The notes below the pieces were generated by a model, which saw only the letters and a program-made list of their open reading frames with translations, had not been told where the DNA came from and did not search any database. From Luteibacter rhizovicinus (GTDB taxonomy: Bacteria > Pseudomonadota > Gammaproteobacteria > Xanthomonadales > Rhodanobacteraceae), in contig NZ_SMCS01000003.1 in the NCBI RefSeq assembly GCF_004342265.1, positions 186,001-250,000 of the forward strand: a stretch of DNA of 64,000 nt, read 5' to 3'. Below are positions 51,137 through 55,722 of this stretch, in pieces (positions within the stretch are counted from its first letter, which is position 1; the number at the start of each line of letters is the position of its first letter). The translations under genes were made by a program, and so were the position numbers.

Positions 51137-52105
51137 TCAACGAACGCGGTGAGACCCGTCGGAACAGCCCTCCAGGTCGTCCGCGCACGGGCCTGGGTCG
51201 AACTGCACCGTGGCGTGGCCTACGCTGTAACGCTCGTTCAGCAAGGTCTTGATGGCCAGCAGGACGCGACCCTGGTCGGCGCCTTCCGTCAGCTCGGCAT
51301 GCAGGGTGGCCATGCGCGAGCCCGCGGTCACCTGCCAGACATGCACGTGATGCACGCCGACAATGGCCGGATCGACCGTGCGCAGCGTTTCCTCGACTTC
51401 GGTCAGATCTACGCCGTCCGGCGTCCCCTCCAGCAAAATATGCGACGAACGGCGCAGCAGGGCCCACGCGCTGCGCAGGATCAGCAGGGATACCAGTACC
51501 GACAGGACCGGATCGGCCCAGAGCCAGCCCATCCAGCGTACGGCCAGCGCCGCGAGGATGGCGGCGACCGAGCCCAGCAGATCGCCCAGCACGTGCAGGC
51601 TCGCGCCGGCGATGTTCACGTCGTCCGGATCGTGGTGATGCAGGGAGCGCAGAACGATCACGTTCACTATCAGTCCGACGACGGCGACGATCAGCATGAC
51701 GCCCGAGAGAATCGGCTGCGGATCGAACAGACGCTGGACGGCTTCGAAGACGATGAAAGCCACCAGCGCGAACTGGGTCAGCGCGTTGACGAAGCCGGCA
51801 AGCACTTCGATACGGCCGTAACCGTAGGTGCGCCGCGCGTCGGCGGGCCGGGCCGCGAAACGGGCGCCGAGGAAGGCCAGCAGCAGTGCCAGCGCGTCGA
51901 CAAGCATGTGCCCCGCATCGGCCAACAGCGCCAGCGATCCGGAAACGAAGCCGCCCGCCGCTTCGACGAAGAGCATCGCCGTGGTCAGTGCAAAAGCGAA
52001 TAACAGCTTGCGTTCGCTGGATGGCGCGTGGTCGTGTGCATCGCCATGGGCATGCCCATGATCGTGCTTGTGAGACGCGTGGTCGTGATCGTGTGTATGA
52101 GCCAT
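51137..52105 (-). CDS. Cation diffusion facilitator (ZitB/CzcD-like) with a His-rich N-terminus
   Basis: The 322-residue inner-membrane transporter begins with a run of about 25 residues containing 12 histidines, typical of zinc-handling CDF proteins. Six helices follow, carrying LLADAGHMLVDAL and SLHVLGDLLGSVAA, the two HxxxD metal-site motifs, and then a cytoplasmic domain with VHHVHVWQV. The family normally exports zinc or cobalt. ATG 52105 is 37 bases after the MerC-family gene, so both probably share the Zur-box promoter, a surprising arrangement for an exporter. Confidence 0.92.
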   Translation of the reverse strand: MAHTHDHDHASHKHDHGHAHGDAHDHAPSSERKLLFAFALTTAMLFVEAAGGFVSGSLALLADAGHMLVDALALLLAFLGARFAARPADARRTYGYGRIEVLAGFVNALTQFALVAFIVFEAVQRLFDPQPILSGVMLIVAVVGLIVNVIVLRSLHHHDPDDVNIAGASLHVLGDLLGSVAAILAALAVRWMGWLWADPVLSVLVSLLILRSAWALLRRSSHILLEGTPDGVDLTEVEETLRTVDPAIVGVHHVHVWQVTAGSRMATLHAELTEGADQGRVLLAIKTLLNERYSVGHATVQFDPGPCADDLEGCSDGSHRVR

Positions 52106-52142
52106 GTGCGGAATGCTAGGGATAGCCCCGCCGGTTACACAA

Positions 52143-52589
52143 TCACGGATGCGCGCATTCGGGGCCGTGCAGATGCCCGGCATGCTCGCTCTTGTCCACG
52201 CGCAGGTTGACGAAATGCGCCGACGCGACGAGCAAACCGCCGCAGGTCACCAGCACGCTGTGCACGATCAGCGAATTGCCGTGCAGGAACGTGACGCCAA
52301 GAATCAGCAGCATGAGCCCGGGTGCGACAAGGGCCAGCGGCAACCGTCGGCGATGCCGGCGGTAACCCGCCAGGAGCACGAACGTGGCAAGGACGCAGGC
52401 GAAACCGACGAAAGCGGCTTCGAAGCGATGATCCGCAAGGAAACCCAGGCCGATGACCGGCAGCAGCGCCAGGACGAACGGCAACGCCGCGCAGTGAAGA
52501 GCGCAAAGGAACGAGGCGGTGGCGCCAAGCCGGTCGGCGGCGTGCCACCAGCGGCGAGGGGTCGATGAGTCGTCGGTTTCTGGCGTCAT
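52143..52589 (-). CDS. MerC family membrane protein, probable metal transporter
   Basis: The 148-residue inner-membrane protein has four hydrophobic helices. A CALHC motif in the first (ATASFLCALHCAALPF) corresponds to the cysteine pair that MerC uses to bind mercury. The tail is rich in His and Cys (EHAGHLHGPECAHP). ATG 52589 is chosen. It starts 40 bases from a palindromic Zur-type operator shared with the divergent receptor gene, so zinc is a more likely substrate than mercury; no mer genes are nearby. Confidence 0.85.
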   Translation of the reverse strand: MTPETDDSSTPRRWWHAADRLGATASFLCALHCAALPFVLALLPVIGLGFLADHRFEAAFVGFACVLATFVLLAGYRRHRRRLPLALVAPGLMLLILGVTFLHGNSLIVHSVLVTCGGLLVASAHFVNLRVDKSEHAGHLHGPECAHP

Positions 52590-52628
52590 AAGAGTGGATA
52601 GCGTGACTAGTTGCACAGGTGCTGGCAA

Positions 52629-52651
52629 GCAATGTTACTTTATAACATTGC
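52629..52651. promoter_or_regulatory. Zur operator between the MerC-family gene and the zinc receptor gene
   Basis: Perfect 9-bp arms GCAATGTTA (52629-52637) and TAACATTGC (52643-52651) flank a five-base spacer. This agrees closely with the known Zur consensus half-site AATGTTA of proteobacteria. It lies 27 bases before the receptor start and 39 bases before the MerC-family start, and a zur gene is 2.3 kb away. Confidence 0.85.
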
Positions 52652-52678
52652 AAAAATGAACCACGGAGTACGCCCTCG

Positions 52679-54682
52679 ATGCGCAACACCTTGCTAGCCC
52701 TGACTCTCGCCGCCACGTTCGGCACCGCCCTCCCCGCTCTGGCGGCCGACGCGGCCGACGATGCCGTACAGGACACGTCCACGGGCACGACCCGCAAGAA
52801 CACCCGGAATCTGGACGCCATCGTGGTGACCGCTGTCCCGCTTGGGCGGAACGCCGACCAGATCGTCGCACCGGTCGCGGTGCTGGCCGGGTCTCGTCTG
52901 GACGACGCCAGGAGCGTCTCGCTCGGAGAAACCGTCTCCGGCATTCCCGGGGTGCAAAGCACCGCCCTCGGCACGGCGGTAGGCCGCCCCGTGATCCGCG
53001 GCCTGGACGGTCCGCGCGTGTCGGTCCTCGAGAATGGCCTGTCCTCGCAGGACGTTTCGAACGTCAGCCAGGATCATGCCGTCACGCTCGAACCGTTTCT
53101 CGCCGACCAGATCGAAGTACTGAAAGGCCCGTCGACACTGCTTTACGGCTCGGGTGCGATCGGCGGCGTGGTCAACGTCGTCGACGGACGCGTACCCGAG
53201 AAAGCTCCCGAGAACGGATTCGCCGGACGCGCGGAACTGCGCAACGACAGCGTGTCGGACGGCCAGACTGGCCTCGTTCGCATGGACGCGGGCAACGATC
53301 GTTTTGCCATTCATGTCGACGGCATGCATCGCGACAACGGCGATTACGACATCCCGGGCGGCACGCTGGCCAATAGCGCGGTGAAAACGACGTCGGGGTC
53401 GGTCGGCGCATCCGTACTCGGCACGTGGGGTTATCTCGGTCTTTCGGTGTCGCGTTTCATGGATCTTTACGGCAGCCCGGCCGAACCCGGCCATCCGGAA
53501 GAAGGCGAGCCGGCCGTCCACATCAAGATGGCGCAGACGAATTACAACCTCAAAGGCGGTTTCGTGCAGCCGTTCGAGGGGATCGAGAAAATCGAATTCA
53601 ATCTCGGCCACAACAGCTATCAGCACGTCGAATACGAAGGCGACACACCGGGCACGACATTCTCGACGAACAGCAATCAGGGACGCCTTGTCGTCACCCA
53701 TGCTCCGGTGGCCGGATGGGAGGGCGCGTTCGGCGTACAGACCCAGCATCGCCAGTTCGCGGCCGTCGGCGAAGAGACCTTCGTTCCCGCGACCACCACG
53801 AAAGGTATCGGCGTGTTCCTCACCGAACAGCGCGACTTCGGCCCGGTGAAAATCGAACTCGGTGCACGTCGCGATTCGCAGAGCGTCCAGCCGGTCAATG
53901 GCGCGAAGCGCGATTTCCATCCCAACAGTCTTTCGGGCGGCATCGCGTGGCGCTTCGCCGAGCGCTGGTACCTGAGTTTCAATCTGGATCACGCGGAACG
54001 CGCTCCATCGGAAGAAGAGCTCTTCTCCAACGGACCGCACGCCGCATCGGCCACGTTCGAAATCGGCGATCCGAACCTCGGTAAGGAATCGTCGAACCAG
54101 GCCGAACTCGGACTGCATTTCCATGGCGATGTCGTCGAAAGCAAGGTTGCGATTTACTACAACCGCTACAAGGACTTCATCTATCTCGCCGATACCGGCA
54201 CTGTCGAGGACGACTTGCCCGTGCGCAACTGGGCGCAGCACGACGCGACGTTCCGCGGCGCCGAAGCCGAAGCGACCTTCCATCTGGCCAAGGGCCCAAG
54301 CGGCAACTGGGACCTTCGCGCTTTCGGCGACACCGTGCGCGCCACGCTCGACAACGGCGGCGGCAATCTCCCGCGCATTCCCGCCGGTCGTCTCGGTGCC
54401 GAACTGAAATGGAATGCCGACAATCTGCGCGCGAGCGTGGGCGCGGTGCGTTATTTCAAGCAGGACAAGGTGGCCGAGTTCGAAACCGATACGGCGGGCT
54501 ACACGCTGGTGAACGCACACGTCGCCTGGACCTTCGTCAACGACGAACGCAGTCAGTGGGAAGCTTTCGTCGACGGCAATAATCTGACCAACCAGACGGC
54601 CCGGCCGGCGACGTCGCTGTTCAAGGACGTGGCCCCGATGCCGGGGCGGAATGTGTCGGTGGGTGTGCGGGCTTTCTTCTGA
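52679..54682 (+). CDS. TonB-dependent receptor, ZnuD-like zinc receptor
   Basis: The 667-residue outer-membrane receptor has a signal peptide ending LAADA, a TonB-box-like segment (LDAIVVTA, near residue 45), a plug (SLGETVSGIPGVQ, IRGLDGPRVSVLENG, LKGPSTLLYGSGAIGG) and a barrel ending GVRAFF. This plug type is shared with ZnuD of Neisseria. A loop with EPGHPEEGEPAVH could contact metal. The Zur operator just upstream supports zinc uptake as its role. It is divergent from the MerC-CDF pair. Confidence 0.92.
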   Translation: MRNTLLALTLAATFGTALPALAADAADDAVQDTSTGTTRKNTRNLDAIVVTAVPLGRNADQIVAPVAVLAGSRLDDARSVSLGETVSGIPGVQSTALGTAVGRPVIRGLDGPRVSVLENGLSSQDVSNVSQDHAVTLEPFLADQIEVLKGPSTLLYGSGAIGGVVNVVDGRVPEKAPENGFAGRAELRNDSVSDGQTGLVRMDAGNDRFAIHVDGMHRDNGDYDIPGGTLANSAVKTTSGSVGASVLGTWGYLGLSVSRFMDLYGSPAEPGHPEEGEPAVHIKMAQTNYNLKGGFVQPFEGIEKIEFNLGHNSYQHVEYEGDTPGTTFSTNSNQGRLVVTHAPVAGWEGAFGVQTQHRQFAAVGEETFVPATTTKGIGVFLTEQRDFGPVKIELGARRDSQSVQPVNGAKRDFHPNSLSGGIAWRFAERWYLSFNLDHAERAPSEEELFSNGPHAASATFEIGDPNLGKESSNQAELGLHFHGDVVESKVAIYYNRYKDFIYLADTGTVEDDLPVRNWAQHDATFRGAEAEATFHLAKGPSGNWDLRAFGDTVRATLDNGGGNLPRIPAGRLGAELKWNADNLRASVGAVRYFKQDKVAEFETDTAGYTLVNAHVAWTFVNDERSQWEAFVDGNNLTNQTARPATSLFKDVAPMPGRNVSVGVRAFF

Positions 54683-54720
54683 CGAAGAAAGTTCTCTAAA
54701 GAAGCTCCCGCAAAGCTCTC

Positions 54721-54869
54721 TGTGGGAGCGCGCCTGCGCGCGATAGGCAACGAAGCGCTGAAGCGGAATCGCACGACCCAGAGGCCGGCCAAATCAGATG
54801 GCCGCCCTTCGGCTCAGTCGCGTTTGCGTCACCGCCCTGTCGGCTTTCGCGCGCAGGCGCGCTCCCACA
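54721..54869 (+). repeat. REPIN-like doublet 4, variant type
   Basis: The 149-bp element is bounded by TGTGGGAGCGCGCCTGCGCG and the inverted CGCAGGCGCGCTCCCACA. The outer arms are a GTGGGAGC variant of the other REPs, and the interior does not match copies 1-3 except at the CGGCTTTCG edge. It lies between the zinc receptor gene and the convergent zur gene. Confidence 0.75.
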
Positions 54870-54902
54870 GTGGATCGAGGGTCGCTGGAGGAACGAGGCT
54901 AC

Positions 54903-55382
54903 TCAGGCCTTACGGCAATTCTTGCAAACGCCATGCACTTCCAGCGTCTGCGCTTGCGGACGGAAGCCGAAGGCTTTCGCCTGCGCTTCGATCAGCTCCG
55001 CGACGCGCTCGTCGCACACTTCCTGCGCGCACGAACAGACATCGCAGATCAGGAAAGGAACCTGATGCGATTCGGCCGGATGGTGGCAGGAAACGTAGGC
55101 GTTGATCGACTCGAGCTTATGGATGAAGCCGTTCTCGAGCAGAAAGTCCAACGCGCGATACACCGTCGGCGGTGCGGCATTGCCGTGCGTCTCGCGCAGA
55201 CGATCGAGCAGGTCGTAGGCCTTTACCGGCTTGCCGGCGGCGGCCACCAGCTGCAGCACTTCGCGACGCAGCGGCGTCAGGCGAAGGCCACGCTCAGTAC
55301 TGGCGTCTTCCACCGCACGCACGAAGCTGCGAGCGTCGTCGTGGTGATGGGAATGCGTGTGCTGGGACGAGTCGGTGGTCAC
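54903..55382 (-). CDS. zur: Fur family regulator Zur
   Basis: The 159-residue zinc-dependent repressor has the Fur-family layout: the winged-helix LRLTPLRREVLQLVAA and APPTVYRALDFLLENGF, then the dimerisation domain with CHHPAESH and two structural zinc pairs, CDVCSC and CKNC. The PVKAYDLLDRL segment and the C-terminal CKNCRKA are characteristic of Zur rather than Fur. GTG 55382 lies eight bases after GAGG and is preferred over TTG 55388. An operator of the right type lies 2.3 kb away, upstream of the receptor. Confidence 0.93.
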   Translation of the reverse strand: MTTDSSQHTHSHHHDDARSFVRAVEDASTERGLRLTPLRREVLQLVAAAGKPVKAYDLLDRLRETHGNAAPPTVYRALDFLLENGFIHKLESINAYVSCHHPAESHQVPFLICDVCSCAQEVCDERVAELIEAQAKAFGFRPQAQTLEVHGVCKNCRKA

Positions 55383-55425: not shown

Positions 55426-55722
55426 TCAGCGCCTTTTCGAGGGCCTGGCCGACGGCAACGGTGGCGGTACGCCGGGCTTCCGCCGGACGGGCAGGAAGGG
55501 CACCACCCAGCCGAAGGGGCCGAGGATCAACGCCGCGACGATGCCAACCTTCAACCGCCCGCGCCACCAGCCCAGCAAGGCTCCCACGAGTACGAAGAAA
55601 ACGGTCCAGGCCAGCAGGCTCCACCACGGAGTCAGCGCCATCAGACGGGTGAGGATCGTCCACGACGCACCGGGATCCATGGGATCCACGCCCTGCATGA
55701 CCTTGTCGATCAGCTCGTCCAA
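55426..55722 (-). CDS. Small membrane protein of unknown function
   Basis: The 98-residue protein has two hydrophobic helices (WWSLLAWTVFFVLVGALLG and VGIVAALILGPFGWVVPF) joined by a short basic loop, and a Pro/Arg-rich tail. The only upstream start is TTG 55722; ATG 55698 would shorten it by eight residues. It lies between zur and gltX on the same strand, 66 bases after gltX. No function can be assigned. Confidence 0.65.
   Translation of the reverse strand: MDELIDKVMQGVDPMDPGASWTILTRLMALTPWWSLLAWTVFFVLVGALLGWWRGRLKVGIVAALILGPFGWVVPFLPVRRKPGVPPPLPSARPSKRR

Follow-up and report, generated by a model that had tools for sequence, protein, structure and literature searches.

MerC proteins of the Tn21 type are small, multi-helix inner-membrane proteins of the PF03203 family. 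In a 64,000-nucleotide stretch of the Luteibacter rhizovicinus genome (hereafter the window), a gene for a protein of the same family and build lies beside a Zur-type operator, a gene for a ZnuD-like outer-membrane receptor and zur, and we analyzed what this MerC-family protein may do there. The window is on contig 3 of a 4.47-Mb genome in 22 contigs with a completeness of 100%. If our reading of the locus holds, the protein would resemble ZnuABC in providing a Zur-controlled inner-membrane step of zinc uptake. ZnuABC differs in being an ABC importer with a periplasmic binding protein, and ZnuA is unmatched in the source genome.

Two further described systems can be compared with this genome. 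The Zur regulon of Caulobacter crescentus (zrpW, znuGHI and znuK/L/M) is reported to have a near-identical Zur box and to place TonB receptors and an uncharacterised inner-membrane protein under Zur (PMC4176598). Six transmembrane domains are reported for Caulobacter ZrpW in the same source. Vibrio ZrgABC, as described in PMC9817125, is similar to a second boxed locus of the source genome in combining ZrgA with an ABC ATPase and a permease; the Vibrio zrg operon further holds genes for DUF2607 and DUF3299, whereas the second locus here has a divergent MerC gene.

A Zur-type operator upstream of MerC-family genes

The operator GCAATGTTACTTTATAACATTGC lies between merC and the divergent receptor gene (Table 1). 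A preliminary description of this DNA had called it a near-perfect palindrome; neither arm in fact carries a mismatch. It is the single match in the window at up to 3 mismatches, a level at which 100 shuffles gave none. The operator precedes the start codon of merC (ATG at 52589, minus strand) by 39 nt and that of the receptor gene (ATG at 52679, plus strand) by 27 nt. A consensus scan of positions 52500-52760 found no sigma-70-type promoter. In the operator core, 17 of 19 letters agree with the Caulobacter zrpW Zur site; the zrpW promoter fragment is reported to have bound Zur in an electrophoretic mobility shift assay (PMC4176598).

The genome-wide operator search that the preliminary description had proposed returned the core AATGTTA-N5-TAACATT with 0 mismatches at the window operator and with 1 mismatch at one further site, and each of these two boxes sits just upstream of one of the genome's two MerC-family (PF03203) genes. 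The remaining listed matches have 3 mismatches. Because the motif and its reversed control each occur at 13 places at up to 3 mismatches, only the 0- and 1-mismatch boxes were counted. One of the 3-mismatch boxes (L014:3603-3621; C3:363602-363620), which shares its CTTTA centre with the window operator, closely precedes a gene for a Dpp7-like S46 peptidase (454.8 bits, cut-off 1200); with this many mismatches it is at background level.

We quantified how often such a box precedes MerC genes in three samples, which overlap in species and are not independent. The order sample comprised 112 loci (30 plus 80 chosen plus the 2 of the source genome) with 113 MerC genes, 108 non-mercury and 5 mercury-type; because these loci came mostly from the top of a longer match list, weak members are under-sampled, and 30 of the 112 had flanks of 1.5 kb only. 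The named-relative sample comprised the best 80 of 433 relatives, with titles mostly from Luteibacter, Rhodanobacter, Dyella, Frateuria and allied genera; the nearest relatives of the window MerC among named genomes are from Luteibacter. The phylum sample covered 40 places outside the order, with 41 genes (38 non-mercury and 3 mercury-type). PF03203 itself was found in 124 of 150 order genomes and in 54 of 249 phylum genomes.

With a box called at 10 or more of 14 letters within about 330 nt upstream, 89 of the 108 order genes, 79 of the 80 named relatives and 29 of the 38 phylum genes of the non-mercury type carried one, against none of the 8 mercury-type genes. As a control, 106 permuted half-site palindromes of the same composition were scanned over the same upstream stretches, and these gave means of 6.9, 2.3 and 6.2 and maxima of 31, 22 and 14 (order, named and phylum, respectively). 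Raising the threshold to 11 of 14 letters left 62, 65 and 22 genes with a box, compared with permuted means of 0.9, 0.2 and 0.9. The permuted palindromes rule out A+T-rich promoters as the cause of the enrichment. In an earlier control, which took the upstream stretches of other mechanical open reading frames in the same loci, a box was found at 25 of 1012 (order set) and 34 of 348 (phylum set). Judged from these sequence comparisons, control of the window merC gene by Zur is well supported, and we hold it with high confidence.

The receptor, MerC-family and zur gene calls of the preliminary description agree with profile and PDB sequence matches. The alignment of the window MerC spans the full PF03203 profile (1-108). 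The top NCBIfam model for the receptor is ZnuD (NF038289; 446.4 bits, under the cut-off of 950), and its closest PDB relative by sequence is likewise ZnuD (4rdr, 272.7 bits). The closest PDB relatives of the window Zur by sequence are 7dh7 (203.5 bits), entitled 'Transcriptional regulator fur family', which we take to be Xanthomonas campestris Zur, and E. coli Zur (4mtd, 123.6 bits).

Table 1. Features in order along the window, from the two minus-strand genes at 51137-52589 to 55382.
Feature	Position	Strand	Basis
ZitB-like CDF cation exporter gene	51137..52105	-	NF002923, 311.4 bits, under cut-off 408
MerC-family inner-membrane protein, 148 aa	52143..52589	-	PF03203, 91.7 bits, cut-off 27.6; hydrophobic segments
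Zur-type operator, perfect 9-5-9 palindrome, common to both divergent genes	52629..52651	.	motif scan
ZnuD-like TonB-dependent outer-membrane receptor, 667 aa	52679..54682	+	NCBIfam profile, PDB relative
zur, Fur-family zinc uptake regulator, 159 aa	54903..55382	-	NF008646, 143.7 bits, under cut-off 167

Neighbours and residues that separate the window MerC from mercury-type MerC

Mercury-type and window-type MerC proteins share an Asp before helix 1 and a His after helix 2. They differ in helix 1 (GCxxC versus CxxHC), in the last helix (SxxD versus HxxN), in the box, which the mercury type lacks, and in their neighbours, which are mer genes in the former and zinc genes in the latter. An ordinary mercury-uptake MerC that came to lie near zinc genes by chance would account for the passed PF03203 cut-off, for the Pfam description of this family as one of mercury resistance, and for the 31% identity over 91 residues between the window MerC and Tn21 MerC. 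The evidence from neighbours, residues and plasmids runs the other way.

Flanks of 1.5 to about 8 kb were fetched around the MerC genes (up to 7 kb for named relatives). Within them, no mer gene stood beside a non-mercury MerC gene (0/108 in the order, 0/80 among named relatives and 0/38 in the phylum set, 226 genes), while merR was present in 8/8 and merA in 7/8 mercury-type flanks. The source genome's own two MerC loci (L011 and L013) gave no mer match either, as the preliminary description had stated for the window, and the possibility that relatives of this protein sit mainly beside merA or merR was not borne out. Instead, zur was present in 79 of the 80 named loci. Among the genes tested it was the nearest upstream gene in 67/80 and the receptor gene in 13/80, so that the usual order is zur, box and merC, mostly followed by a CDF gene; the window arrangement, with the receptor gene divergent to merC, occurs also in 12-13 named loci. 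In the order set, zur, a receptor, zrgA or a COG0523 gene was in the fetched flank of 67/108 MerC genes, and a box or one of these genes accompanied 91/108. Many MerC genes of the phylum set lie beside zur, COG0523 or zrgA, and several have none of these within fetched reach. Two other arrangements were noted: a TonB receptor gene that immediately precedes MerC in the same orientation, operon-like (L241:5795-8557, outside the order), and two tandem overlapping MerC-like reading frames near zrg-type ABC genes (L123:5248-6224).

The window MerC carries C29-x-x-H32-C33 (CALHC) in helix 1 and H125-x-x-N128 in the last helix, and lacks the mercury-type GCxxC. In the order set, both cysteines of C-x-x-[H/Q]-C are present in 108/108 non-mercury proteins (His in 88, Gln in 20), and the last-helix HxxN has its His in 107/108 and its Asn in 105/108; by pattern, CxxHC occurs in 38/38 and HxxN in 36/38 non-mercury phylum proteins. 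None of the eight mercury-type MerCs has this signature of CxxHC and last-helix His. In six aligned mercury-type rows, Tn21 MerC included, Thr or Ser replaces the first Cys and Gly or Ala the His, an extra Cys stands three places past the second Cys, and the last helix has SxxD. The His/Cys-rich tail noted in the preliminary description is indeed present (SEHAGHLHGPECAHP), and conservation of its H139, H141 and C145 reaches 90% or more in an alignment of 63 rows. In a quick tree with several long branches, the mercury-type rows form one side of a starred branch that excludes the window MerC.

A tblastn search of 72,556 plasmid records returned 4 matches for the window MerC, annotated 'MerC domain-containing protein', versus 3,606 for Tn21 MerC. 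Motif, neighbours and tree together lead us to reject a mercury MerC lying near zinc genes by chance, a reading to which we give almost no credence. If the 226 non-mercury genes are zinc genes, the mercury name in Pfam misleads for most sampled members, with 8 mercury-type genes set against those 226 in partly overlapping samples.

Proposed zinc import by the window MerC and rival explanations

We consider it somewhat probable that the window MerC is the Zur-repressed inner-membrane zinc importer of a zinc-starvation locus. In the mechanism that we propose, zinc-loaded Zur would bind the palindrome and silence the two divergent genes. Under zinc shortage, zinc, free or carrier-bound, would reach the periplasm through the ZnuD-like receptor; from there Zn2+ would cross the inner membrane through the MerC-family protein, by way of a single site made of the helix-1 CxxHC and the last-helix His. 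The protein would act as a small facilitator in place of ZnuABC. The sequence itself shows the operator, the genes, the conserved box and residues and the lack of a ZnuA or ZIP match, whereas repression, transport, its inward direction, the metal and the single residue site are inferred.

The occurrence of other importers bears on this proposal. In the source genome, ZnuA (PF01297) had no match in a search in which 11 of 14 controls gave a signal, ZIP had none where 8 of 14 controls did, and ABC-3 had one marginal match (20.4 bits, cut-off 20.1). Among 150 order genomes, 27 have a ZnuA match, 41 a ZrgA match (over the cut-off in 40) and 53 a ZIP match (over it in 44). All 24 genomes of the window's family have MerC, and 15 of them lack a ZnuA, ZIP or ZrgA match (E <= 0.001; Nramp, CorA and Pit not searched); in this count one genome with a sub-cut-off ZrgA match (G085) was scored as ZrgA-positive. 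Across the order, 50 of 124 MerC genomes lack all three, as do 8 of 26 MerC-less genomes. In favour of the proposal, ZnuA is rarer in genomes with MerC (16/124) than in those without (11/26; p 0.001). The boxes before both MerC genes of the source genome and before most non-mercury MerC genes sampled, the zur gene at 79 of the 80 named loci and the conserved helix-1 cysteines and last-helix His point the same way. If the proposal is right, MerC would supply the missing inner-membrane zinc step in bacteria that have Zur and MerC and no match to ZnuA, ZIP or ZrgA.

Several points weigh against zinc import by the window MerC, among them that the protein has no known energy source. The p value for the rarity of ZnuA is uncorrected for kinship, and the MerC-less genomes among those listed are mostly of one family (f8). 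The structure model of the window MerC has four long helices at a predicted local distance difference test score (pLDDT) of 69, a middling confidence, and has no PDB fold match at E <= 0.001; no PDB sequence matched the MerC profile at E <= 1. Given that score and the lack of a significant PDB match, the meeting in space of CxxHC and the last-helix His is something that we infer.

A further point against a stand-in for ZnuABC is the zrgA-type ABC system of the second boxed locus. There the box (C3:180194, left of the window) separates the second MerC gene, which it closely precedes, from a divergent operon of zrgA, an ABC ATPase gene and a gene for an FtsX/MacB-type permease. The ZrgA protein scores 115.3 bits with PF10986 (over the cut-off of 27.4) and 98.6 bits with the NCBIfam equivalog (under 185), and its neighbours match ABC_tran and FtsX/MacB. 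Further on in the locus (L013:1640-6728) is a COG0523 GTPase gene, for which the best-scoring model is that of the zinc chaperone ZigA (577.5 bits, under the cut-off of 600). The genome's two MerC proteins share 32% identity over 149 alignment columns. With a second boxed locus that encodes a zrgA-type ABC system, the window MerC is not the sole zinc-import candidate of this genome. The suggestion of the preliminary description that MerC replaces ZnuABC wholly or in part agrees with the absence of ZnuA and ZIP matches and with the 15 of 24 family genomes, and is qualified by this second system.

These neighbours lend themselves to another explanation, namely that MerC is not a transporter on its own but a Zur-controlled membrane zinc chaperone or accessory subunit, which would feed another importer (the zrgA-type ABC system or a different one) or a ZigA-type GTPase. 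The recurrence of MerC genes beside zrgA-ABC and COG0523 genes fits this, as do the small size of the protein (148 residues), the missing energy source and the His/Cys tail of the family. However, since 15 of the 24 family genomes have MerC with none of ZnuA, ZIP and ZrgA, the partner importer in these would have to be none of the three, and a transport function is described for MerC in the mercury branch (PMC12193353). We regard a purely accessory role as unlikely, though it is the foremost alternative to be weighed.

The adjoining exporter gene, which the preliminary description had passed over, is hard to reconcile with a pure zinc importer. The ZitB-like CDF gene starts 37 nt past the merC stop on the same strand, no terminator-like site was found at 52050-52300, and the two genes are possibly in one transcript. 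In 72 of the 80 named relatives a CDF gene likewise follows merC in the same orientation, at a distance of 12-103 nt, and the other 8 have no CDF match in the fetched stretch. An exporter in a starvation unit is odd for simple import and needs explaining; the preliminary description had read the locus as one of zinc import, a reading that the boxes support in its Zur control and that leaves this gene unexplained. The two genes might instead form one zinc-balancing unit for export or periplasmic supply, in which MerC works with the exporter and not as an importer. This would suit the close spacing, found in all 72 relatives for which a CDF gene was located, and the presence of a CDF gene in the vicinity of six out of eight compared MerC genes that are linked to COG0523.

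It is at odds with the 40 phylum loci, where MerC sits with zur, COG0523 or zrgA and no CDF match lies beside it, so that the merC-CDF pairing falls outside the wider pattern. Other Zur-repressed genes, moreover, are reported to serve uptake or sparing (PMC6103462). Overall, a balancing unit of this kind appears improbable to us. The same source describes activation of CDF genes by Zur, in X. campestris from a GC-rich site of its own, with a similar case in Streptomyces. This precedent offers one way in which zinc import by MerC could be reconciled with the exporter gene, through a second, zinc-activated start within merC. As another way, the exporter may belong to the unit as a guard against zinc shock on resupply.

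The exceptions to the box pattern also count against the proposed import. At the threshold used, 19/108 order and 9/38 phylum non-mercury MerC genes have no box, and 17/108 order genes have neither a box nor a tested zinc gene; 7 of these 17 belong to one branch in family f9. The members of this boxless branch are L086, L090, L096, L102, L103, L104 and L111, some of which have CxxQC. Their neighbours include an ABC-2 transporter, a methyltransferase and a HAD hydrolase at one locus and GNAT and MgtE at another, and no tie to zinc was found among the neighbours scanned. At L102 the MerC gene precedes a pair of ABC-2 transporter genes.

Stenotrophomonas merC and the wider family

A distant merC homologue of Stenotrophomonas maltophilia is reported to have undergone location-specific selection in the cystic-fibrosis lung, with the changes L16P, C24Y and P35L (PMC5253648). 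It adjoins a P47K homologue, with a gene for Co-Zn-Cd resistance nearby, and the source gives C20 as the partner of C24. The source weighs metal and antibiotic resistance; as far as its main text goes, zinc uptake is not discussed and the word zinc is absent. L16, C20, C24 and P35 stand at identical positions in 8/8 MerC copies near a COG0523 gene (8 of 12 loci; genera g26 and g55). Each of these copies has a box of 13/14 letters, and they form a subgroup different from that of the window MerC. Stenotrophomonas is presumably among these 8 genomes. Because the four reported residues match those of boxed MerC copies, the S. maltophilia homologue very probably belongs to the zinc type and has a Zur box, with C20 and C24 very probably the cysteines of its CxxHC. 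The selection on merC in the cystic-fibrosis lung would then concern zinc, and a zinc explanation would become available for these mutations.

Taken more broadly, PF03203 might, at least in Pseudomonadota, be mainly an unrecognised class of Zur-controlled zinc importers (CxxHC in helix 1, HxxN in the last helix), of which mercury MerC would be a specialised branch whose site became GCxxC. Such proteins would be the sole recognisable high-affinity inner-membrane zinc route in many Rhodanobacteraceae, and selection on Stenotrophomonas merC would be selection on zinc uptake. We offer this generalization tentatively, as one that falls a little short of probable. If the non-mercury genes are zinc genes, the choice between zinc and mercury within one small family could be tested through a few residues.

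As to earlier work, a MerC-domain gene is reported as up 2.59-fold in a Xanthomonas response-regulator mutant (PMC7698356). No paper among the literature matches listed ties MerC to Zur or zinc uptake; regulon databases were outside this search, and an earlier prediction may exist there.

Two minor features border the genes in Table 1. Past zur, at 55426-55722 on the minus strand, is an open reading frame of 98 residues with no Pfam or NCBIfam match. In the gap between the receptor gene and zur (54707-54870), an imperfect inverted repeat of the repetitive extragenic palindromic (REP) type was spotted by eye (gtgggagcgcgcctgcgcgcg ... cgcgcgcaggcgcgctcccac).

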